The position numbers and the translations under genes were made by a program. Shown piece after piece: positions 4,377 to 56,859 of a stretch of 64,000 bases of DNA. The stretch lies in the NCBI GenBank assembly GCA_017643395.1, contig JAEPNP010000001.1, forward strand, positions 579,806-643,805, read 5' to 3'. The notes beneath the pieces are model-generated. The model was not told the DNA's origin and searched no databases. It was given only the letters and a program-made list of their open reading frames with translations. Positions within the stretch are counted from its first letter, which is position 1; the number at the start of each line of letters is the position of its first letter. Source of the stretch: Rhodothermales bacterium. GTDB lineage: Bacteria; Bacteroidota; Rhodothermia; Rhodothermales; UBA10348.

Positions 4377-5582
4377 ATGCCCGGTACCCTTCCCGCGAAT
4401 CTCCACGTGCTTCTGGCTGCGGCCTGCGCCGGCACCCCCAACGCCCTATTGATCTCCGACCGCTCCGGGGTTGTGGTCTGGTGCAACGAGGCCGCGGGTG
4501 CATTGACAGGCTACCCCTGCGAGGAGCTCATCGGACGGAATCTCAGCGTCTTTCGCTCCGGAGCCCATCGGCCGCATCTGTATCAGGAAATCTGGGAAAC
4601 CGTACTTGCCGGACGCGCCTGGAGGGGCAAGTTGCTCAATCGGCATGCTGACGGCTCGCTGCGCTGTGAGGAGTTGACGGCCTTTCCGGTTGGGGAGGAC
4701 GAGCCCGGTGGTCCGAACCATTTTGTAAGTGTCAGACGCGACATCGGAGATGAACTGAAGCAGAAGCGCACGCAGGAAAGCCTGCGCCGGCAATTGACGG
4801 TGGCGATCGGCCGGGTTCAGGATACACTCAGCGGTGGCGTCGAAGTCCTGGCCAATCTTGCGGACCACCACTCGAGCACCTTCGGCAAGCACGCCCATCG
4901 GGTAGCATCCCTGGCCGTCAGCATGGCCCGCCATCTGGAACTGAGTTCTGAGGATGTCCGCACCGTGCGCGACGGAGCGTTGCTCCACGACATCGGGAAG
5001 ACCGTCGAGGCCTACTACCACGGGAAGCAATGTCCGGAGGGTCCGCAGCGATACCTGCACGCCAGCCTGGGCGCGCAGTTGCTCTCGCCGATTCCCGGTG
5101 TCGATGCGGTGGCGGCTATCGTCCGCCACCACCATGAGCACATTGACGGAAGCGGTTTTCCGGATCGCCTATCAGGAGGGCATATTCCGGTTGGCGCCCG
5201 GCTGGTCGCGGCTGCCAACGCGTACGACCGGCTGAATTCGCTACGGCCCGCTCCGGTCGAGCAGATTCTCGAAGCACTGCGTCGCACCGTCGGCATCCGG
5301 CTGGATCCGGTGGCCTTCGAGGCCCTGCGCGTGGTGATAGAAACGGACGCACTCAGCGAGGAGGGATTCCTGGTAAGCCTGCGCGATCTGAAGGTCGGAA
5401 TGACGCTGACGGGGCCGGTGCGCACGGTGTCCGGACGCTTGCTCTGCAGCGGCCGTACCCAGGTGACGGAGACCATTCTCGGTCGCCTGTGTCGGGTGCA
5501 CGTTAATGACCCGGTGATTGATCGAATCCGGATCGAGCAGCCGAATGATGAAAGCCCAGGGCAACGGCCAGAGGCTTCCTGA
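4377..5582 (+). CDS. PAS-HD-GYP protein, probable cyclic-di-GMP phosphodiesterase
   Basis: 401 residues: an N-terminal PAS domain (about 10-125) with ALTGYPCEELIGRN, a short linker helix, then an HD-GYP domain (about 160-300) and a C-terminal extension. Metal-binding residues are visible in LLHDIGK (His204, Asp205) and HHHEH (251-255); the GYP signature reads DGSGFP (257-262), a Tyr-to-Phe variant seen in other members. The usual second HD-GYP acidic motif is altered (AAANAYDRL, with Asn where Asp is common), so metal occupancy and activity could differ. Members of this family hydrolyse cyclic-di-GMP. It is the likely output of the upstream two-component system. Confidence 0.88.
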   Translation: MPGTLPANLHVLLAAACAGTPNALLISDRSGVVVWCNEAAGALTGYPCEELIGRNLSVFRSGAHRPHLYQEIWETVLAGRAWRGKLLNRHADGSLRCEELTAFPVGEDEPGGPNHFVSVRRDIGDELKQKRTQESLRRQLTVAIGRVQDTLSGGVEVLANLADHHSSTFGKHAHRVASLAVSMARHLELSSEDVRTVRDGALLHDIGKTVEAYYHGKQCPEGPQRYLHASLGAQLLSPIPGVDAVAAIVRHHHEHIDGSGFPDRLSGGHIPVGARLVAAANAYDRLNSLRPAPVEQILEALRRTVGIRLDPVAFEALRVVIETDALSEEGFLVSLRDLKVGMTLTGPVRTVSGRLLCSGRTQVTETILGRLCRVHVNDPVIDRIRIEQPNDESPGQRPEAS

Positions 5583-7139: not shown

Positions 7140-8498
7140 CTAGTACAGGCGGGTGCGCTCATCCCATATCGGCACCAACAACTCATAATCCCCGAACCCG
7201 GTCTTGTCCACGAAGATGAACTGGCGCCCGATGCGCTCATAGATCCACACTTCGTAGGGCTCGTAGTTGAAGGTGTGCGGCTTCTTGCGTACAAAGTCGG
7301 GCTCGCCGTAGCGCACGAGCACAAAGCCGCGGTCGGTCTTCCAGCCTTCGATCAGGCTGGTGTAGCGCCGATTTGCGAAGGAGACCCGGTAGTAGTACTC
7401 CTCCATGACCTCGTTGCGGGCCGTGCCGGGAGTTGGATCACGCTTGTCCCAGAACGCCAAAAAGCGGCGGTAGCGGTCGGCCTCGGTGGCACCCTCACGA
7501 ATGAAGGCGATGTCCTTTTTCTTGGCGGTGTACTCGAGCTGCTCGATGGCCTCTTCGACATTGGAGATGTGCTGCTGAAGACCCATCCACCGAGCGGTGA
7601 AGTCCTTGGTAGCGAAGTCCACCGGCACGCCGTCCTGATCCTCGAGGATCACGCGGATGATGTGCGGCCCGGCCTCCATGTCACGAAGCGGGATGTTGAT
7701 GACGTGCTGATTGCGGCCTGACTCCAGCCGGACTTCCTGAGACTCTTCGTGCACCACGTGGCGGTCCACATCCGGCTCGGAGCCCTCTGGAGCCGGCAGC
7801 AAACTGCCATCCGTTTCTCGCACCAAACGCACGACTTCGTGGCGCAAGCGCATGGCTGCTGAGCGATCCGAGTAGGTCTCGTACAGGATCTGCACGCCCA
7901 GTTCGTCCGTCCCGACGTTGCCGGTTACGCGGGGAATGAACTGCAGCGTCGCCTGATCATAGTTGTCGAGGATCGCGATGTCGCTGAGGGACTGCGAGGC
8001 GGAGAAGTCGCGCACCTGCACATCCATCTCCCGCACGAACACCTGATTGGAGTTGCGGTCCTCCACCTGCATGGCCAGTTGGTATACGCCGGCGGGCAGC
8101 TGCAGCGACTGCGTGGTATAGGCCGACAGGTCCTCAGATTCGGTTGCCAGATACAAATCGGCTCGTGCGGTACCCTCCCAGATGCGGGTCTGAACCGGAG
8201 TCGAGGTCAGTTCGTCACCATTGCGCAGCAGCGCATCGACCGTGACCACGTAGTCCGCTCGAAACCCGTTCGACGAACGCACAAACGTAAGCCGGCGAAA
8301 CGGGATACGAGTGTACAGGTCAACGGTGTTGTACCCGGAGTCGTCGCCCGACCACACGGTCATGGCGTCGACATAGAATTCGGGAATGACCTCCTGGGCG
8401 TGAGCGGGCGTGCGGGCCGCAACCAGGAGCAGTATCAGCACGGTTAGACAGCCGAGACAGCGTCTCTGGTGCTGGCTATAACCATGAGGCCTTTTCAC
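7140..8498 (-). CDS. Secreted GWxTD domain-containing protein
   Basis: 452 residues with an N-terminal signal peptide (hydrophobic LTVLILLLVAA, cleavage near AHAQ about residue 35). The C-terminal half carries the GWxTD signature GWKTDRG within a domain that continues RYGEPDFV and YEPYEVWIYE, typical of this family in Bacteroidota, Acidobacteriota and related phyla. The middle is beta-rich and resembles the companion region of the same family. The biochemical role is not established; an envelope location is likely. Its stop abuts the 125-bp repeat. FtsY lies upstream on the same strand with a 214-bp gap, so it probably has its own promoter. Confidence 0.9.
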   Translation of the reverse strand: MKRPHGYSQHQRRCLGCLTVLILLLVAARTPAHAQEVIPEFYVDAMTVWSGDDSGYNTVDLYTRIPFRRLTFVRSSNGFRADYVVTVDALLRNGDELTSTPVQTRIWEGTARADLYLATESEDLSAYTTQSLQLPAGVYQLAMQVEDRNSNQVFVREMDVQVRDFSASQSLSDIAILDNYDQATLQFIPRVTGNVGTDELGVQILYETYSDRSAAMRLRHEVVRLVRETDGSLLPAPEGSEPDVDRHVVHEESQEVRLESGRNQHVINIPLRDMEAGPHIIRVILEDQDGVPVDFATKDFTARWMGLQQHISNVEEAIEQLEYTAKKKDIAFIREGATEADRYRRFLAFWDKRDPTPGTARNEVMEEYYYRVSFANRRYTSLIEGWKTDRGFVLVRYGEPDFVRKKPHTFNYEPYEVWIYERIGRQFIFVDKTGFGDYELLVPIWDERTRLY

Positions 8499-32196: not shown

Positions 32197-33333
32197 ATGA
32201 CCACTTCCGCCCCGACTGATCTCCTCTTCATGATGGCTGGCGACGTGCACCGAAATGCACGTGCGCTTCGCCAGTTGGGAGCACTGGCTGCAGATGGCAT
32301 GTCGGTGCGGGTTCTCTGCCTACCCGGGCAGGCCACTTCTCCGCTCCCGGATGGCGTCTCCGTAGAGCCAATAGCCGTGCAGGGCAGCGGCGGGCCGGGC
32401 TTCTTCCGGCGCCTGCATCGGCAGTTTGCGGAGGCCGCAGCCGCGCACGCCGCGAAGCTGGTCCACGCCTCCGACCTTTACGTACTTCGCGCCGCGCGCC
32501 AAACCGCAAGAGCCCGCGGCGTCCCCTACACCTTCGACGCGCGCGAGCTCTACACGCACGTCGCGGCGACGGCCGGGAGACCCCACGTGCGATTTTTCTG
32601 GGATGTGGTCCAGCGTGGTGCCATCCGTCAAGCCGCTCGCGTGTGGACGGTCAGCAACCATATCGCAGACTTCCTGGCCGAGCGGTACGGGATCACTCGC
32701 CCGGACGTCCAGCTCAATGCGCCCGCATTCCGGGAAATAACGCCGGACCCGTTCCTCAGAAACACGCTCGGTCTGATGCCGGATCAGCCCATCCTGCTCC
32801 ATCTGGGACAGTTGAGAAGGGATCGTGGAGCGGAGGTGTTGATCCAAGCGATGGCAGAGTGGCCGACCACCGCCCCGGATGCTCAGCTGGTATTTCTCGG
32901 CTACGGACCCCATCGCAAGACGCTGGAACGTTTGGCGAATGGGCTCGCACGCGTGCACTTCCTGGACCCGGTGCCGCCGAATCGGGTGTTGCCGGTTACT
33001 GCAGGGGCAGACCTGGGCGTGACGCTGCTGCAGCCGACTTGCCTGAATCACCGGTATGCGCTGCCGAACAAGCTCTTCGACTATCTCGCGGCCGGCCTGC
33101 CGGTGGTTGCTTCGGATCTCGAGGAAACGGGGGCGATGGTGCGGCGATTCGATTGCGGCCTGACGGTGGAGCCGAACCGCCCGGACGCGGTTCGCGACGC
33201 CCTGCTCAAGGCATGCACCCGAAGCGCCGATACCCTTCGTTGGAAGCGTAACGCGCGCGTTGCTGGCGAAACATTAGACTGGAACGCGGTTTCAGACCGA
33301 TTCGCGCGGCAGATGCGCAGCCTCATCCCATGA
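32197..33333 (+). CDS. GT4-type glycosyltransferase
   Basis: 378 residues with two Rossmann-like halves. The C-terminal half has LLHLGQLRRDRGAEVLIQA, VFLGYGPHRKTLERLA, and the donor-binding stretch LPNKLFDYLAAGLPVVASDLEE, which places it in the retaining GT4/GT-B group. No membrane segment or signal is present, so it acts on the cytoplasmic face, probably in surface polysaccharide or glycoconjugate synthesis. Donor and acceptor are unknown. The stop overlaps the next start as ATGA. Confidence 0.88.
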   Translation: MTTSAPTDLLFMMAGDVHRNARALRQLGALAADGMSVRVLCLPGQATSPLPDGVSVEPIAVQGSGGPGFFRRLHRQFAEAAAAHAAKLVHASDLYVLRAARQTARARGVPYTFDARELYTHVAATAGRPHVRFFWDVVQRGAIRQAARVWTVSNHIADFLAERYGITRPDVQLNAPAFREITPDPFLRNTLGLMPDQPILLHLGQLRRDRGAEVLIQAMAEWPTTAPDAQLVFLGYGPHRKTLERLANGLARVHFLDPVPPNRVLPVTAGADLGVTLLQPTCLNHRYALPNKLFDYLAAGLPVVASDLEETGAMVRRFDCGLTVEPNRPDAVRDALLKACTRSADTLRWKRNARVAGETLDWNAVSDRFARQMRSLIP

Positions 33334-33851
33334 CACGACTTTTCTCTACCGTAGTACTTCTGCTCGCCATGGCCGGCACCGCCCTGGCGCAGTCGCCGCG
33401 TGCTGCGGTGTGGATTCCGTTTGAGGAGGCCCTCGAGATGGGCAAGAAGGCGGAAAAGATGGTCCTGGTAGACATCTGGTCGCCGCGATGTGGCTGGTGC
33501 CGCAAGATGCAGGAAGAAGTCTATACGCGCGATGACGTACTGGACTACCTGGACGAGCACTTCATCACCGGCCGCCTCAACATCGACGTGCGTGACGACA
33601 CGCTGTCGTACCTGGGTTACGAGCTTTCGTCTGCGGACTTGTCGGTCGGATTCGGGGCGCGTGGAACGCCGACCACCGTTTTCCTGACACCTGACGGAGG
33701 CTACATCACCCGCCTACCCGGGTATCACGACTACGATTCCTACTGGCCGGTGCTGCAGTTCATCGGGTCCGAATCGTTCCGGGACATGAGCTTCCAGGAG
33801 TTCATGGAGAAACGCGGAACGCCGCTGAAGCAGGCCGAGGGCCAGCGCTAG
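33330..33851 (+). CDS. Secreted thioredoxin-like protein with a CGWC active site
   Basis: 173 residues: signal peptide (LFSTVVLLLAMAGTALAQ) and a thioredoxin fold with VDIWSPRCGWCRKMQEEVY, so the redox pair is CGWC at about 52-55, and the cis-Pro region GTPTTVFLTPDG. It matches the thioredoxin_7/DUF255-like group found in Bacteroidota. It probably acts as a periplasmic disulfide oxidoreductase. It overlaps the glycosyltransferase gene by 4 nt, though a functional link is not obvious. Confidence 0.88.
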   Translation: MTRLFSTVVLLLAMAGTALAQSPRAAVWIPFEEALEMGKKAEKMVLVDIWSPRCGWCRKMQEEVYTRDDVLDYLDEHFITGRLNIDVRDDTLSYLGYELSSADLSVGFGARGTPTTVFLTPDGGYITRLPGYHDYDSYWPVLQFIGSESFRDMSFQEFMEKRGTPLKQAEGQR

Positions 33852-49733: not shown

Positions 49734-50712
49734 TCGACGCCCCGTTTTCGTCACCGGCGGCACGGGGTTCGTCGGAAGCCATCTCGTGGAGGCCCTGCGA
49801 GCCCGCGGGTATGAGGAGATCCGTTGCCTGGTGCGCAACAAACCGGGCTGGCTGGAGCACATCGCCCACACGCCGGTGCGCGGAGACCTGACGCACGGTC
49901 CGACCCTGGCGCAGGCCATGCAAGGTTGCAGCGTGGTCTTCCACGTGGCCGGCCGCACGCGGGCGCGAACCTGGGAGGAATTCGAGGCGGCCAACATAAC
50001 GGGCACGACCAATCTGTTGGAGGCAGCCGCCACACTGGACCAGCCGCCCCGCATCCAGATCGTCAGCAGCCTGGCCGCCGTCGGCGACGTGGCGGCGGAC
50101 ATCGCGGACGAGTCCACTCCGCTCAATCCCGTGTCGCAATACGGGCGCAGCAAGGCCCTGATGGAGGTCGCCATCGAGCCCTGGCGGCAGCAACTGGACC
50201 TCAGCGTGGTTCGGCCGCCGGCCGTCTACGGGCCACGCGACTCCGACATCTTTACCGTTTTCCAGGCTGCTTCCCGCCGGCTGTTCGCCGTGGTAGGCGG
50301 CGCCAAGGGGCCCGCCATGACCCTGGTCCACGTACGGGATCTGGTTCGGGGCATGATCGATGCCGCAGAGACTGCCGAAACGCGGAATCAGACCTACTTC
50401 CTCGGAGCGGACCCGCCGTACAGTTGGGATCAGGTCCGGGATGCCGCAGCACAGGCCCTGGGGCGCCGCGTCGCGACGCTCCGCATTCCTCGCCCGCTCA
50501 TCGTTCCAGTCGGCACGATGGTGGAGAAAGTCGGGGGCCTCTTCGGCGCATACCCTCCGCTGAATCGGGAGAAGGCGCTCGAAATACGGGACGCCTGCAT
50601 CATGTGCACCTCCGGGGCGGCACACCGTGATTTTGCCTACCAGGCGTCGGTGCCGCTTCAGGAAGGCTTCGACGAAACTGTTACTTGGTATCGGGCACAC
50701 GGCTGGCTGTGA
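49726..50712 (+). CDS. NAD(P)-dependent extended SDR, epimerase/dehydratase-like
   Basis: 328 residues, cytoplasmic. Cofactor loop FVTGGTGFVGSHLVEAL, DLTHGPTLAQAM, HVAGRTRARTWEEF and the catalytic YGRSKALME (Tyr-x3-Lys) place it in the extended SDR family, near 3-beta-hydroxysteroid-dehydrogenase or dihydroflavonol-reductase-like members. The substrate cannot be inferred. It starts before rlmD ends (8-nt overlap) and precedes the fused oxoglutarate dehydrogenase gene. Confidence 0.88.
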   Translation: MADRRPVFVTGGTGFVGSHLVEALRARGYEEIRCLVRNKPGWLEHIAHTPVRGDLTHGPTLAQAMQGCSVVFHVAGRTRARTWEEFEAANITGTTNLLEAAATLDQPPRIQIVSSLAAVGDVAADIADESTPLNPVSQYGRSKALMEVAIEPWRQQLDLSVVRPPAVYGPRDSDIFTVFQAASRRLFAVVGGAKGPAMTLVHVRDLVRGMIDAAETAETRNQTYFLGADPPYSWDQVRDAAAQALGRRVATLRIPRPLIVPVGTMVEKVGGLFGAYPPLNREKALEIRDACIMCTSGAAHRDFAYQASVPLQEGFDETVTWYRAHGWL

Positions 50713-50833
50713 CGCCCGACCAAAGGGGGGAATCAAAGCCCAAACCGCATCGTTCACGCTGGAATTGACCAACTCCCAGGCGTGCACACCCTCGCGCCTT
50801 CCTGCACCTCACCCGCTCAGACTTCCGCCACTA

Positions 50834-53800
50834 GTGAGCAACCTCGGATTCAACACCGGCTACATTGAAGACCTGTACCGGCAGTACCTGGAAGACCCGA
50901 ACAGCGTCAGCGAAAGCTGGCGAGACTTCTTCCAGGACTACAACCCAGGAGAAGAGTTTGTAGCGGCAACGCCCGCCCAGCCCGCGACCGCCCCGGCTCA
51001 GACGCCGACTGCGACGGCCACGCAGGCCCCGACCGGCCGGGGGGACGGTGCCACGGCGGCAGCCGACCTGCAGGAAGGTGCAGAGGCCAAGGCCATCCGT
51101 GGCCCGGCCGCCAAAATCGTCGAGAACATGGAGGCCAGCCTCCAGGTCCCGACGGCCACCTCGGTACGCTCGGTTCCGGTCAAACTGCTGGCCGAGAACC
51201 GCCAGCTGATAAATGCCCACCAGCGCGATGTGGGCGGCAACAAGGTGTCCTATACGCACCTGATCGCGTACGCGATCGTCAAGGGCATTGCCGCCTTCCC
51301 GAACATGAATACCACGTTCCGTCAGCAGAACGGAACGCCCGAACATGTCATCCCCGGATCGGTCAACCTGGGACTGGCCATCGATGTCGAGCGCCGAGGC
51401 CGACGCAGTCTCCTGGTGCCCAACATCAAGGGTGCTGACGGCCTCAGCTTCCGCGAGTTTTTGGGTCACTACAATGACCTCGTGCGCCGTGCCCGCGACA
51501 ACAAGCTCGAGATCGCGGATTTCATGGGCACGACCGCATCGATCACGAACCCGGGCATGATCGGTACGGCGCTCTCGGTGCCCCGCCTCATGCAGGGCCA
51601 GGGCCTGATTGTCGGTGTCGGCTCAATCGGTTACCCCACGGAGTACCACGCCTTCCCGCCAGAGGTCATCGCGCGGACCGGCATCTCCCAGGTGATGAGC
51701 ATCACCTCGACCTACGACCACCGCGTCATCCAGGGCGCCGAGAGCGGGGCGTTCCTGAAGCACGTGGAAGAGCTCCTGACCGGGCACCACAGCTACTACG
51801 AGGAGATTTTCCAGAGCCTGGGGATCCCGTACCAGCCGTATGTCGGTGCCGTGGACTCCACTCCCATGGTGGGTGGACAACGCGCCGACGAGCTGGACAT
51901 GGTGCGCAAGCAGGCCAAGGTGCTGCAGCTGATCCGCGCCTATCGGGTACGGGGGCACCTGCAGGCGGATGTGAATCCGCTGGGCTACAACTGGCGCTAC
52001 CATCCGGAACTGGATCCCAAGGAGTACGGACTGACCATCTGGGATCTGGACCGCGAGTTCGTCACAGGCGGCCTCGCGGGGCACGACATGCTGCCGCTCC
52101 GGGACATCCTGGAAATCCTGCGGCAGACCTACACCCGCAAGGTGGGTGTCGAGTTCATGCACATCTCGGATCCACAGGAGAAGCGCTGGCTGGTTGAACG
52201 CATCGAGCCCGTGCGTGGTGTCGAGCCGATCTCGGAGACGGCGAAGAAGCGCATGCTGGAGAAGCTCAACGGAGCGGAGGCGTTTGAGAACTTCCTGCAC
52301 ACCAAGTATATCGGTCACAAACGATTCAGCCTGGAGGGCTCCGAGACGGTCATTCCCATGCTGGACATGATCCTGTCGGATGCGGCCAACCAGGAGACGG
52401 CCGAAGTGGTGATCGGCATGGCCCACCGCGGGCGCCTGAATGTGCTCGCGAACATCCTGAACAAGCCCTACGAGGTCATTTTCTCGGAGTTCGAGGGCAA
52501 CATCGATCCGAATACGACGCAGGGCTCGGGCGATGTGAAATACCACCTCGGCGCGCGGGACGAGCACGAGTCGCCCTCCGGGTCGAAAGTGAAGGTGACG
52601 CTGGCCTCCAACCCCAGCCACCTGGAGGCCGTCAATCCTGTCGTTGAGGGCATGGCGCGCGCCAAGCAGGAGGCCATTCGGGACGAACGTGGTGACTCCG
52701 AGCGCCGCGACTATCACGATGCCGTGCTGCCGATTCTGATTCACGGCGATGCGGCCTTCGCCGGCCAGGGCGTGGTCGGAGAGACCCTGCACCTGTCGCA
52801 GCTCCCCGGTTACGAGACCGGCGGAACGGTGCACATCGTCATCAACAACCAGATCGGATTTACCACAGGGCCCGAGTCCGCGCGGTCTTCCACATACGCG
52901 AGCGACATCGCCCGCATGATCCAGGCGCCCATCTTCCACGTCAATGGCGACGATCCGGAAGCGTGCGTGCGGGTGGCCCGCCTGGCCCTGGACTTCCGGC
53001 AGGTGTTCAACAAGGACGTGGTCATCGACCTCCTGTGCTACCGCGTGCGCGGGCACAACGAGGGTGACGAGCCGACCTATACCCAGCCGCTTCTCTACAA
53101 GAAGATTGAGGCCAAGCGCTCGGTGCGCAAGCTGTACACGGAGCTGCTGCTCCGCCGCGGCGACATGAGCCCCGAAGAGGCAGAGCAGGTCCTGGAGGAT
53201 TACCGCAATCGCCTGAACGATGCGTTTACGCGGACCAAAGAGGTCACGGCAGAAGAGCCTGCACCGCCGCCGCGAGCACCGCTAAGGTCCAACGAGCCCG
53301 AGGGTCCGGTCAAGATTGAGACCGCTGCCTCCCAGGATTTGATCGATGCGGTCATCAAGTCCCTGATGACATTTCCGGAGGGCTTCAACGTGCACAAGAA
53401 GCTGCTTCGCCAGTTTCAGCGGCGCGAGAAGCTGTACCACGACGAGCGCAAGGTCGATTGGGGTTTTGCGGAGGCACTGGCCTTCGGCACCATCCTCGCC
53501 GAGGGTCGCCACGTGCGTCTCAGCGGGCAGGATTCCCGGCGAGGCACGTTTTCGCACCGTCACGGCGTGGTCTACGACCAGGAGAACGCCGACGAGTACA
53601 TCCCGCTCAACCACGTGGCGGAGAAACAGGGCCGGCTGTACATCTACGACAGCCTGCTGTCGGAGTACGCCGTCACCGGTTTCGAGTATGGCTATTCCGT
53701 GGCCTCGCCCGATTCACTGGTAATCTGGGAGGCCCAGTTCGGCGACTTCGCCAACGGTGCCCAGATCATCTTTGACCAGTTCCTGTCGGCAGCCGGCGAG

Positions 53801-54496
53801 AAATGGGGGCAGGAAAGCTCGCTCGTCCTACTGCTGCCGCATGGGTACGAGGGACAGGGACCCGAGCACTCTTCCGCGCGCCTGGAGCGCTTCCTGCAGC
53901 TGTGTGCCGAGGGCAACATGCAGGTCTGCAACATCACCACGCCTGCAAACATCTTCCACGCGCTGCGTCGGCAGGTGCATTCAGAGAAGAAGCTGCCTCT
54001 GGTAGTAATGTCGCCCAAGAGTCTGCTGCGCCACCCGCTGGCGGTCTCCGACCCGGCCGACTTTACGGAGAGCGCATTCCGGCCGGTGATTCCGGCTGAT
54101 GTCGACGATCCATCCTCCGTGGAGCGCCTGGTCTTCTGCAGCGGGAAAGTGTACTACGACGCCCTTCAGAAGCTGAAAGAGACCGGAGCCCCCGTGGCGC
54201 TGGCCCGGGTCGAGGAGTTGTATCCGCTCGATCGCGCCGCGATCAGGGAGGAACTGTCGCGGTTCCCTTCAGCCAAGGTGATCTGGCTCCAGGAGGAACC
54301 CGCCAACATGGGCGCCTGGCAGTTCATCCGGTACCCGCTGGAGGAGCTGCTTGCCGAGGTGCGCGGAGACGACTGCGAGCGAATCGGCTACGCCGGTCGG
54401 CCGATGTCCGCATCGCCCGCTACCGGGTCGCATCACGTGCACGCGGTGGAGCAGGACGGGATTGTCGCGCGGGCACTTGGACTTGAGTCGGAGTAG
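50834..54496 (+). CDS. kgd: Fused 2-oxoglutarate dehydrogenase E1 / succinyltransferase E2 (Kgd/OdhA type)
   Basis: About 1220 residues from a GTG start. An E1o N-terminal segment (GYIEDLYRQYLEDPNSVSES), a Pro/Ala/Thr linker (44-75), an E2-like acyltransferase domain (about 90-325) with YDHRVIQGAESG, then the thiamine-diphosphate E1 with HGDAAFAGQGVVGETL and GHNEGDEPTYTQP. The His-Arg-x-x-Gln-Gly at 296-301 (Gln where free-standing E2 has Asp) is also found in mycobacterial Kgd. No lipoyl domain is present, so another protein must carry lipoate. GTG 50834 yields the typical N-terminus; the open frame upstream overlaps the SDR gene. Confidence 0.93.
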   Translation: MSNLGFNTGYIEDLYRQYLEDPNSVSESWRDFFQDYNPGEEFVAATPAQPATAPAQTPTATATQAPTGRGDGATAAADLQEGAEAKAIRGPAAKIVENMEASLQVPTATSVRSVPVKLLAENRQLINAHQRDVGGNKVSYTHLIAYAIVKGIAAFPNMNTTFRQQNGTPEHVIPGSVNLGLAIDVERRGRRSLLVPNIKGADGLSFREFLGHYNDLVRRARDNKLEIADFMGTTASITNPGMIGTALSVPRLMQGQGLIVGVGSIGYPTEYHAFPPEVIARTGISQVMSITSTYDHRVIQGAESGAFLKHVEELLTGHHSYYEEIFQSLGIPYQPYVGAVDSTPMVGGQRADELDMVRKQAKVLQLIRAYRVRGHLQADVNPLGYNWRYHPELDPKEYGLTIWDLDREFVTGGLAGHDMLPLRDILEILRQTYTRKVGVEFMHISDPQEKRWLVERIEPVRGVEPISETAKKRMLEKLNGAEAFENFLHTKYIGHKRFSLEGSETVIPMLDMILSDAANQETAEVVIGMAHRGRLNVLANILNKPYEVIFSEFEGNIDPNTTQGSGDVKYHLGARDEHESPSGSKVKVTLASNPSHLEAVNPVVEGMARAKQEAIRDERGDSERRDYHDAVLPILIHGDAAFAGQGVVGETLHLSQLPGYETGGTVHIVINNQIGFTTGPESARSSTYASDIARMIQAPIFHVNGDDPEACVRVARLALDFRQVFNKDVVIDLLCYRVRGHNEGDEPTYTQPLLYKKIEAKRSVRKLYTELLLRRGDMSPEEAEQVLEDYRNRLNDAFTRTKEVTAEEPAPPPRAPLRSNEPEGPVKIETAASQDLIDAVIKSLMTFPEGFNVHKKLLRQFQRREKLYHDERKVDWGFAEALAFGTILAEGRHVRLSGQDSRRGTFSHRHGVVYDQENADEYIPLNHVAEKQGRLYIYDSLLSEYAVTGFEYGYSVASPDSLVIWEAQFGDFANGAQIIFDQFLSAAGEKWGQESSLVLLLPHGYEGQGPEHSSARLERFLQLCAEGNMQVCNITTPANIFHALRRQVHSEKKLPLVVMSPKSLLRHPLAVSDPADFTESAFRPVIPADVDDPSSVERLVFCSGKVYYDALQKLKETGAPVALARVEELYPLDRAAIREELSRFPSAKVIWLQEEPANMGAWQFIRYPLEELLAEVRGDDCERIGYAGRPMSASPATGSHHVHAVEQDGIVARALGLESE

Positions 54497-54525
54497 CCGT
54501 CTTTCGGGAACGGCCGAGCCAGCCT

Positions 54526-55524
54526 CTACAAGGCGAAACAGACGAGGCGTGTCTGACGATCGTCCGCACACAGTCGCCTGCTGTTTGCCCCCAGTGCGTT
54601 TGCCCGCTCCACGGGAAGAACCAGCTCCTGGGTGTCGCCTGTAGCCAGGTCGAAACGAAAGGCCGTGCGATGGGGCATGCGCGCCTTGTGAGCACCCAGC
54701 ATCCAGACCTGCTCGCCCCCGCTGCTCATGTGAGAGACCAGAAGATTGGTCGGGTACGCACTCAACCCTGCCGTGACGGGCGATTGCCTCATACCTGCAC
54801 CGACTTCTGCGGAATCGGCCTGCGCCGGCAGTCCGGCCAGCCGGTGCACGCTCGAGGCACTTCCCGCGTGCACTTCCGTGCGATTCAGAAACCGGTACTG
54901 AACGACCAGAGCACCTGAGGGCGCGACGTCGAAAAAGATGCTGCTCCAGGGTCCCTTTCGCGGGGGGTGTATGGGTTGGAGCTCGACCTCCTGGCCGTCC
55001 CGGAGTTCGACAAAATGCGCCCCGAGGAGTCCCGATCGCACTACCACAGGATGACCTCCCCCGGAGATCGCCAAACCATTCGTAGGCCGAACCTCCGGGT
55101 TCAGCGAATGTGTGGCAATCCAGTTGAGGTCCTTGTCGAACTCGTGCATCCGGTCGGAGCCAACCTCGCCTTCCAGAACGAAGACGGAGGCATTGCTAAC
55201 GCGAAGAAACCGTGGCCCCACCGCGAACTCGCCCGGACCAGCACCACGCTGCCCAACTCTCTTCAGGATCTGGCCATCCGGCGACACCTTGATCACCTGA
55301 TGAAAGCCGCGGTCGGCGATATAGACGGTGCCGTCTTCGTCCACCTCAATCGCCTCAATCACCCCAAAGTCGGCTGATTCGGCGGAACCAAGCGCCCAAA
55401 CGCGCTCGACCTGAACCGTCGGCTGGCCATCCTCGTCAGCACCGGAGTCGCCCGACGAGCAGGCTGTTGCCCCGAAGAGCAACAGCCCGCAAGCCAGGAT
55501 CCAGGTGGTCAGGCGGCGAGGCAC
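54526..55524 (-). CDS. 6-bladed beta-propeller lipoprotein
   Basis: 332 residues with a lipoprotein signal (LLLFGATACSSG). The mature part has NHL/6-bladed-propeller blades, for example IEAIEVDEDGTVYIADRGFHQ, VSPDGQILKRVGQRG and GPGEFAVGPRFL, a pattern widespread in Bacteroidota. The GTG start overlaps the last base of the TAG of the upstream Cys-rich peptide gene (TAGTG), which shows coupled translation. In Bacteroidales, related propellers neighbour small leader-type (NVEALA) peptides; the layout here is similar. No catalytic motif seen. Probably outer-membrane-anchored. Confidence 0.85.
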   Translation of the reverse strand: MPRRLTTWILACGLLLFGATACSSGDSGADEDGQPTVQVERVWALGSAESADFGVIEAIEVDEDGTVYIADRGFHQVIKVSPDGQILKRVGQRGAGPGEFAVGPRFLRVSNASVFVLEGEVGSDRMHEFDKDLNWIATHSLNPEVRPTNGLAISGGGHPVVVRSGLLGAHFVELRDGQEVELQPIHPPRKGPWSSIFFDVAPSGALVVQYRFLNRTEVHAGSASSVHRLAGLPAQADSAEVGAGMRQSPVTAGLSAYPTNLLVSHMSSGGEQVWMLGAHKARMPHRTAFRFDLATGDTQELVLPVERANALGANSRRLCADDRQTRLVCFAL

Positions 55525-55790
55525 TAGATCACGCCTCCGTGACAGGTTTCATCGATGACCACGAACGCGTAGGCAAACTCGTCTCCCGCGCAGCAATCGC
55601 TGCAGTAGGATACCTCCTGCTGACCCAGAATGTTGTAGATGCCCAGATCTCCCCCGGAGCATGCATACAGATAGAGGCCGTCTTGCAGCCCGCCACAGTC
55701 ACCCGCGGGTACGCGCGCTGTTGCGTCTGAAGAAATGTCCAGCACAAGAACGAGGGCCAAAGCAGAAAGAAGCAGTAGAACGACTCGCAT
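55524..55790 (-). CDS. Small secreted Cys-rich peptide, partner of the propeller
   Basis: 88 residues. MRVVLLLLSALALVLVLDIS is a signal or membrane segment. The mature region of about 68 residues has six Cys (32, 44, 63, 66, 67 and 83) and Gly/Asp-rich loops, as in DCGGLQDGLY and CSDCCAGDEF. The even number and the CxxCC arrangement suggest disulfides or a bound metal. I chose ATG 55790, since upstream codons look noncoding. Its stop overlaps the propeller start. No family name can be given; a modified or disulfide-stabilised secreted peptide is a reasonable guess. Confidence 0.7.
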   Translation of the reverse strand: MRVVLLLLSALALVLVLDISSDATARVPAGDCGGLQDGLYLYACSGGDLGIYNILGQQEVSYCSDCCAGDEFAYAFVVIDETCHGGVI

Positions 55791-55884
55791 GGGTAACCTC
55801 AGGGTTGGTGATAGTGTCCCGGAGATTAGCGCTATCATGTTCCGGTGGATGGCACTTTCGGTGGGAATTGAGTCCGCACTTTTG

Positions 55885-56682
55885 TCAGGAATTCTGATCC
55901 AGTGAGCGGGATAGCGCCTTCCGTCCAGCAGATTCGCTGGCATATCCGGCCCAGGCTGCGGCTTCGGATATACTGAGCCCACACTGGTTTCGCAGATCCA
56001 CCAAGGCTCGCACCCGGATCATCTGCAAGTACTCCTTGGGGTACTTGCCCACATACCGCCTGAATCTTCCGGGTACTCCGCGACCTGAACGAGTGCTGCG
56101 AATTGCACTGCTGATCGTGCAGTGTTCACTCCAGACATGGGCATTCAGGTAGATCAGAAGCTCCTGCACATCCGCCGGCCATGAAACCTCCGGCAAGTGG
56201 ATCAGGTCGTCCTCAATATCCCGCAAGACTGCGCGGGGATCGTTGATTCGCTCCAACCATGCTCGGACCGCAGGAGTCACAGCCCGCTCGACTCTCCGTA
56301 AACCCAGATCCTCGATGCTGGAGAGCAGCGTATTCAGGCTATCACCCTTATACGCCAGGCCGGAGACTATTCCTGCCTGCCAAAGCGACAACGTGGGGAG
56401 AGACAGCTGTGCCGTGTACAGGAGAATGCGTGTATCGGGCCGGAAGCGCCCGGCTATTTCCTCCAGCTCCTCCGTCGCCATGCTTGTGATTCGACCGCCG
56501 GGTAGATTGGGAAGTCGAACGTCCAGGACGACTATGTCCGGCTCCTGGTCTGCGGATATTCCGTTCCGCGTAAAGGCAGGGTCCAGGAGAACAATTTTGC
56601 CTGACTTTGCTGCCAGCAGCGACAGGGTTTCGTGGACGGCCGGATGGTCGTCCGCCACCAATACGCTGAGGGGCAGGCGCAT
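55885..56682 (-). CDS. Response regulator with AraC-type DNA-binding output
   Basis: 265 residues. Receiver domain with Asp11/Asp12 (VADDHP), phospho-acceptor Asp54 (VVLDVRL), Thr90 and Lys112, carrying an extra loop about 60-82. The C-terminus (about 165-262) is an AraC-family pair of helix-turn-helix units (GRFRRYVGKYPKEYLQMIRV and LSISEAAAWAGYAS). No kinase gene is adjacent. It lies 94 bp upstream of the Cys-rich peptide on the same strand, so control of that pair is plausible. The AraC output on a receiver with this loop is uncommon. Confidence 0.85.
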   Translation of the reverse strand: MRLPLSVLVADDHPAVHETLSLLAAKSGKIVLLDPAFTRNGISADQEPDIVVLDVRLPNLPGGRITSMATEELEEIAGRFRPDTRILLYTAQLSLPTLSLWQAGIVSGLAYKGDSLNTLLSSIEDLGLRRVERAVTPAVRAWLERINDPRAVLRDIEDDLIHLPEVSWPADVQELLIYLNAHVWSEHCTISSAIRSTRSGRGVPGRFRRYVGKYPKEYLQMIRVRALVDLRNQCGLSISEAAAWAGYASESAGRKALSRSLDQNS

Positions 56683-56790
56683 CGTCGGTACTTGTGATCC
56701 AGGACTTCACCATGGAACACGTAGAATCGCGGCGACCTACGACACGGGCCGAGGTTTGAACTGCCACCGCGCGGAATCTGCCGCCATAAG

Positions 56791-56824
56791 AAAAGGGGTG
56801 CCACCCAAGGTGACACCCCTTTTT
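56791..56824 (-). terminator. Intrinsic terminator downstream of rpsU
   Basis: AAAAGGGGTGCCACC pairs with GGTGACACCCCTTTT across a short loop, with one mismatch. Leftward reading places a T-run at the end, and rpsU stops 36 bp upstream. The symmetrical A and T runs could also stop transcription coming from the left. Confidence 0.85.
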
Positions 56825-56859
56825 CAATCTATGCGGAGCCGTAGCTCCTGCCGATGCGC

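Follow-up and report, generated by a model that had tools for sequence, protein, structure and literature searches.

An Orphan Cys-Rich Peptide Gene Overlapping a Predicted Propeller Lipoprotein Gene in an Accessory Cassette of a Rhodothermales Bacterium

Introduction

Among the described systems, the closest to the locus analysed here are the NVEALA peptides (PF14055) of Bacteroidales and the 6-bladed propeller lipoproteins, both of them family names with no described function in the literature searched, where no paper mentioning NVEALA and nothing on a peptide/propeller pair could be found. In a genome of the same phylum as our locus (G329), each of the six NVEALA genes precedes a gene for a lipoprotein of 336-393 aa. 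The propeller profile matches four of these lipoproteins, and the NVEALA cluster also holds a thioredoxin-like lipoprotein with a CTSC motif and a signal peptidase I-like gene. Other families that offer points of comparison are the DUF5128 or "6-bladed beta-propeller" proteins (PF17170) and the NHL-repeat propellers, the small proteins of the DUF6520 family (PF20130), the halocin C8-like peptides (TIGR04449), and methylamine dehydrogenase (MauB/MauA/MauD/MauE), in which a Cys-rich small chain sits on a propeller, that of MauB having seven blades, and dedicated disulfide helpers are present.

The locus described here lies in a window of 64,000 nucleotides from a Rhodothermales bacterium, the window being the whole stretch of DNA that was analysed. 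An initial annotation of this DNA had been reminded by its layout of the NVEALA/propeller pairs, while setting the peptide apart from them by its sequence, and both observations hold. The likeness consists of the position of a gene for a short, secreted peptide with Cys residues immediately before the gene for a propeller-type lipoprotein, of the multiple divergent copies per genome, and of the presence of thioredoxin-like genes, the CTSC lipoprotein in the NVEALA cluster and those found in the sister cassettes of our locus. In contrast, the window peptide has a longer mature part with six Cys and neither the NVEALA motif nor its leader, an AraC/receiver regulator belongs to the window unit, and the window copy has no thioredoxin-like gene. 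Assignment of the peptide to NVEALA was rejected, as it has no PF14055 match and no NVEALA-type motif in its leader; PF14055 matches above the cut-off were found in none of the 114 genomes of the order. The window pair is NVEALA-like in layout without being an NVEALA member by its sequence, and by analogy it looks like an unstudied counterpart, in function, of the Bacteroidales NVEALA peptide systems.

Results

The Cys-Rich Peptide Gene and Its Overlap with the Propeller Gene

The peptide ORF runs on the minus strand from an ATG at 55790 to a TAG at 55526-55524 (Table 1). As had been annotated, it encodes a short peptide with a signal and six Cys arranged as CxxCC plus three singles, every detail of which was borne out by the ORF and the Cys positions (residues 32, 44, 63, 66, 67, and 83). 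The N-terminus shows a basic start, then a long hydrophobic stretch and an AxA site, the leader being ...LALVLVLDISSDATARVPAGDC, and from these features of the sequence the signal is predicted to span residues 1-25, with the site lying between ...DATA and RVPAGDC. The predicted mature peptide, of about 63 aa, is acidic and contains all six Cys. The TAGTG that the same annotation had assigned to both the peptide stop and the propeller start was also found as described, the propeller starting with the GTG at 55524 and having one base in common with the TAG of the peptide, so that translational coupling of both genes is likely.

Table 1. Positions of the features of the locus within the window.
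Feature	Position	Strand	Basis or remark
Three-gene segment flanked by the 2-oxoglutarate dehydrogenase E1 (kgd-type) and S21 ribosomal protein genes	54497..56859		Absent here in relatives
NHL-type six-bladed beta-propeller lipoprotein (predicted), 332 aa	54526..55524	-	AF2 model and lipobox-like sequence
TAGTG, peptide stop/propeller start with one common base	55522..55526	-	Sequence
Cys-rich secreted-type peptide, 88 aa	55524..55790	-	ORF and Cys positions
Shine-Dalgarno-like GGAGG, within the peptide gene	55534..55538	-	9 nt before the propeller GTG
Shine-Dalgarno-like GAGG	55797..55800	-	6 nt before the peptide ATG
AraC-type (HTH_18) regulator, N-terminal receiver-like domain	55885..56682	-	Sub-cut-off Pfam matches; gene upstream of the peptide

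Searches with the peptide gave no Pfam and no NCBIfam match at E 1, no match to TIGR04449 at E 1, and none to DUF6520. No homologue was detected as a second copy in its own genome, in the 114 genomes of the order, or in a scan of genome contigs, and the exact peptide/propeller pair is therefore known from one genome only. Thus, the possibility raised in the initial annotation that no other genome has the pair turned out to be true for the exact peptide over these 114 genomes, but pairs of this kind do occur elsewhere. A profile of the Cys-peptide family "CDG", defined in this analysis by the peptides L086A/B, L177, L179, L180, L182, and L158, reached the window peptide at E 4.3, which leaves it outside this family. 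In a single-sequence AF2 model, the mature part of the peptide forms four beta strands (pLDDT of about 70-83 there, 65.9 overall), and a fold search with this low-confidence model returned no significant solved match (best E 0.4).

Regarding codon usage, the peptide frame ranks first among its six frames, although narrowly (0.11 versus 0.07 for the best antisense frame), with a score that resembles those of its neighbours (0.14 for the propeller and 0.075 for the regulator) and falls short of what typical window genes reach. By chance, about 0.02 short ORFs combining a hydrophobic N-terminus with four or more Cys are expected per 340-nt upstream window.

A Predicted NHL-Type Propeller Lipoprotein

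The signal of the propeller protein reads (V/M)PRRLTTWILACGLLLFGATAC22SS, and because of its lipobox-like Cys22 the protein is predicted to be a lipoprotein. It also contains the motif GQRGAGPGEF, conserved as GxxGxGPGEF among its relatives. Sequence profiles gave only weak NHL and PF17170 matches below the cut-off, with a score of 12.6 bits on PF17170 against a family cut-off of 22.9 that leaves it outside the family by profile; a paralogue in the same genome scores 21.0. The AF2 model, obtained from an alignment of 55 relatives (pLDDT 80.5, pTM 0.78), has six-bladed NHL domains as its top solved matches, over residues 34-332, the best of them being the Brat NHL domain (1q7f, Z 24.1, rmsd 3.0 over 257 residues), and it matches Pizza6 with a Z of 19. 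The window lipoprotein models as a full NHL-type six-bladed propeller, similar in predicted fold to the DUF5128 and NHL-repeat propellers to which its sequence matches only below the cut-off, and this model, together with the lipobox-like Cys, agrees with the 6-bladed propeller lipoprotein that had been annotated. Direct propeller homologues were not found in the genome contigs by tblastn (1e-3), and a whole-genome search for propeller homologues retrieved many.

A Three-Gene Segment Absent from Relatives

The initial annotation was limited to the peptide and the propeller (54526-55790). The feature is larger, as the regulator gene belongs to the same inserted unit. In the window, 2,364 bp separate the end of the 2-oxoglutarate dehydrogenase gene from the end of the S21 gene, with exactly three genes between them, whereas the distance between the same two gene ends is 71-325 bp in 17 of the 18 same-family genomes in which both flanking genes were found, both congeners included. 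In the eighteenth genome, an unrelated ORF of 361 aa lies between the two flanking genes. Since the regulator, peptide, and propeller genes are missing as a block at the syntenic place in relatives, the trio is an accessory cassette whose limits are set by this comparison, and the simplest reading of this synteny would be that it was gained in this lineage. The GC content of the segment is 0.603, compared to 0.633 in the flank, and no match of the cassette to a defence system was found by PADLOC. The neighbouring 2-oxoglutarate dehydrogenase gene (50627-54496, plus strand) resembles the fused actinobacterial-type enzyme, with an E2-like catalytic stretch before E1 in one ORF.

The regulator matches HTH_18 (1.7e-5, 25.5 bits) and Response_reg (2.2e-5, 25.0 bits) in Pfam, below the respective curated cut-offs of 33.6 and 30.2 bits, and both cut-offs are reached by a paralogue encoded in the same genome (33.6 bits for HTH_18 and 75.5 bits for the receiver). 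Only two other full-length homologues were found in the 114 genomes (E 1e-6), one in its own genome and one in a congener, and both of them adjoin Cys-peptide/propeller pairs. In addition, three HTH-only homologues in genome G018 head other secreted genes. One of these AraC HTH genes, at locus L195 (C247, 6306-7875), precedes the genes for a secreted peptide with four Cys and for a 227-aa lipoprotein without Pfam match that is not a propeller; therefore, a propeller is not the sole possible partner of a Cys peptide. Homology between the L195 peptide, encoded after this related regulator, and the window peptide was considered and found to be unsupported (BLAST E 0.35). A homologous HTH regulator at locus L194 (C134, 715-2891) is followed by a secreted trypsin-like gene with SASHCTG and GDSGSALF motifs.

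Pairing of Cys-Rich Peptides and Propellers across the Order

About 0.98 Mb of sequence around propeller genes of the order was fetched and scanned for short ORFs whose products begin with a hydrophobic segment, carry a basic residue close to the start, and have four or more Cys in their mature part. The end of the ORF had to fall between 300 nt ahead of and 40 nt past the start of the following gene. Such ORFs were found upstream of 34 of the 177 propellers with enough room, versus 4 of 373 other long ORFs taken from the same loci as the propellers (Fisher p 3.6e-14), and one of these four (L058) lies itself within a propeller cassette. The same scan at the propellers yielded, as controls, four ORFs on the opposite strand and four downstream. 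When similar peptides were collapsed, which was the sole way in which genome kinship was handled, 26 unrelated clusters remained, spread over 20 of the 39 genomes and over five families (p ~1e-10). Some of the 34 are probably chance finds, as about 0.02 per place predicts 3-4 of 177, and L168 and L123 are weak-looking members of the set.

Orthologous peptide pairs, from loci other than that of the window, showed dN/dS values of 0.10-0.24 for most and of 0.48 for one, and these low values indicate that the orthologous Cys peptides are translated. On the other hand, such an upstream peptide is lacking at about 80% of the propellers of the order and is hence not demanded by the propeller fold as such. 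With relatives of a second propeller of the same genome, the pattern reaches further into the phylum (L180, L185, and L187). In summary, the window peptide is an orphan, yet the Cys-peptide/propeller arrangement recurs in the order with many unrelated peptides. The surface partner proposed for the peptide in the initial annotation is supported in that the pairing recurs, although the unit is wider than a pair and adds an AraC-type regulator and, elsewhere, a thioredoxin-like protein.

Some peptides of the set gave sub-threshold matches to known small proteins: two peptides matched DUF6520 (best E 0.053), and the L067 peptide weakly matched the halocin C8-like family (E 0.002, 19.1 bits versus a cut-off of 24). 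The latter is a seven-Cys peptide encoded before a propeller (5179-5466).

Sister Cassettes and Thioredoxin-Like Proteins

A second cassette of the same genome (L086) contains, from 6746 to 3469, the regulator, peptides of 71 and 83 aa, the propeller, and a thioredoxin-like lipoprotein with CSSC. The two peptides of this locus (C2:120000-134000) are different from each other, have eight Cys each, and lie in a row before the single propeller (5321-5536 and 5046-5297, minus strand); another propeller is found upstream of the regulator. In the congener (L087), the regulator homologue adjoins a thioredoxin-like protein, a Cys peptide ending at 7371, and a propeller (7375-8451), and in a genome of another family (L058), an AraC HTH gene, a Cys peptide, a DsbA-like protein (PF13462) with CDGC, and a propeller follow in a row. 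At the more distant locus L187 (G116:C20, 1156-3308), a six-Cys peptide and a propeller are followed by a MauE/DoxX protein that ends in a thioredoxin-like CPPC stretch, to which its MauE domain (PF07291, 2.6e-16) is fused; this row is reminiscent of the mau gene cluster.

More generally, the neighbours of Cys-peptide/propeller pairs repeatedly include small anchored proteins in which C-x-x-C is followed further on by TP, with the variants CSSC, CYSC (twice), CGTC, CEAC, and the MauE fusion with CPPC, the L087 copy being degenerate. Because Pfam misses most of these proteins, the term "thioredoxin-like" is based on the motif, and on PF13462 for L058. A profile built from the recurring C-x-x-C proteins matched near 6 of the 34 peptide-bearing propellers versus none of the 143 peptide-free ones (p 3e-5), with two of the six matched loci being part of the seed; when these two were not counted as matches, the figures were 4 versus 0 (p 0.001). 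No thioredoxin-like gene adjoins the window cassette. An ORF with the thioredoxin-like motif IWSPRCGWC is encoded at 33330-33848 (plus strand) of the window, far from the cassette.

Discussion

We consider it probable that the trio constitutes a regulator-controlled accessory cassette whose exported, disulfide-rich peptide acts on a surface propeller as its cognate ligand or as a subunit. According to this proposal, the AraC-type regulator with its receiver-like domain would control the coupled peptide and propeller genes, and the overlapping start and stop would keep the synthesis of both products in step. The peptide would be exported by Sec and cleaved after ...DATA, its six Cys forming disulfides outside the cytoplasm; in the sister cassettes, the anchored thioredoxin-like protein probably forms or proofreads these disulfides. 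The propeller would be lipidated and displayed on the outer membrane, where the peptide may dock on one of its faces as a ligand or small subunit, acting as its cognate partner. As the peptides differ from genome to genome and the chassis stays the same, a specific recognition task at the surface is the most likely role of the pair, which could be signalling or competition between cells, or the binding of an outside molecule. In favour of this proposal are the statistical link of such peptides to propellers, the low dN/dS values of the orthologous pairs, the absence of the trio as a block in relatives, the regulator homologues and thioredoxin-like genes beside other pairs, and the NVEALA layout. 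Against it stand the lack of homologues of the window peptide, the missing thioredoxin-like neighbour in the window, the many propellers without a peptide, the sub-cut-off scores of the regulator domains, and the non-propeller partner at L195.

The main rivals of this cognate-partner reading are toxin-immunity and independent co-expression. In the first, the Cys-rich peptide would kill or inhibit close relatives, and the propeller lipoprotein would bind and neutralise it on the producer. Adjacency, coupling, accessory character, and diversity are typical of toxin-immunity pairs and are all present here, and the sub-threshold halocin C8-like match of one peptide of the set is also in agreement with such a role. 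However, the net charge of the mature peptides is negative in 31 of 36 of the set, which weighs against a membrane-active bacteriocin, as most pore-forming bacteriocins are not acidic in this way. Moreover, conservation is in some cases higher for the peptide than for its propeller (72-75% versus 50-52% identity), no dedicated exporter adjoins the pair, and the response-regulator link would be unusual for an immunity gene, so we regard a bacteriocin with its immunity protein as unlikely.

We judge it equally unlikely that peptide and propeller are separate outputs of one regulator that do not bind each other, for instance a periplasmic thiol or metal buffer expressed along with an unrelated propeller. 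The adjacency to propellers is strong and specific over the 26 unrelated peptide clusters, and the one-base overlap in the window and the same pairing in NVEALA also argue against it, even if the regulator precedes non-propeller secreted proteins in one genome (G018), the peptides have no common fold motif, and many propellers have no peptide.

Markedly less probable is that the peptide is the disulfide-stapled light chain of an enzyme with the propeller as its heavy chain, as in methylamine dehydrogenase. The combination of a Cys-rich small chain, a propeller, and a thioredoxin-like protein recalls MauA, MauB, and MauD, and a MauE domain fused to a CPPC stretch is encoded beside peptide and propeller in L187. 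However, none of the 88 residues of the window peptide is a Trp, so it has no tryptophan tryptophylquinone cofactor, its propeller is of the NHL type with six blades and not of the seven-bladed type of MauB, and no enzyme family was matched. Finally, that the peptide ORF is not a gene, with the regulator and the propeller alone being real, is hardly credible, because the lack of homologues and a codon score barely above that of the best antisense frame are outweighed by the signal sequence, the two Shine-Dalgarno sites, the one-base overlap, the low chance expectation, and the same layout at other loci with the regulator, where the peptides are unmistakable.

Coming back to the peptide as cognate partner of its propeller, a broader and more tentative extension can be put forward. 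The cassette could be part of a modular surface system that extends across Bacteroidota and combines an AraC-type regulator with rapidly exchanged disulfide-rich peptides, an NHL propeller lipoprotein, and, as folding helper, an anchored thioredoxin-like protein. NVEALA would be only one branch of this system, and the peptides might be messengers or weapons between cells recognised by their own propeller. If the pairing is general and comes with a dedicated regulator and disulfide helper, many orphan small ORFs would gain a partner and a testable function; were this true, the role of these peptides would become an ordinary pull-down or knock-out question.

As a separate observation on the genomic neighbourhood of propeller genes, those of L047, L051, and L055 are located directly after a gene with an RND efflux transporter-like end (MSLTGCVVLVGIVVNDAIIKVDFINQRRE...).
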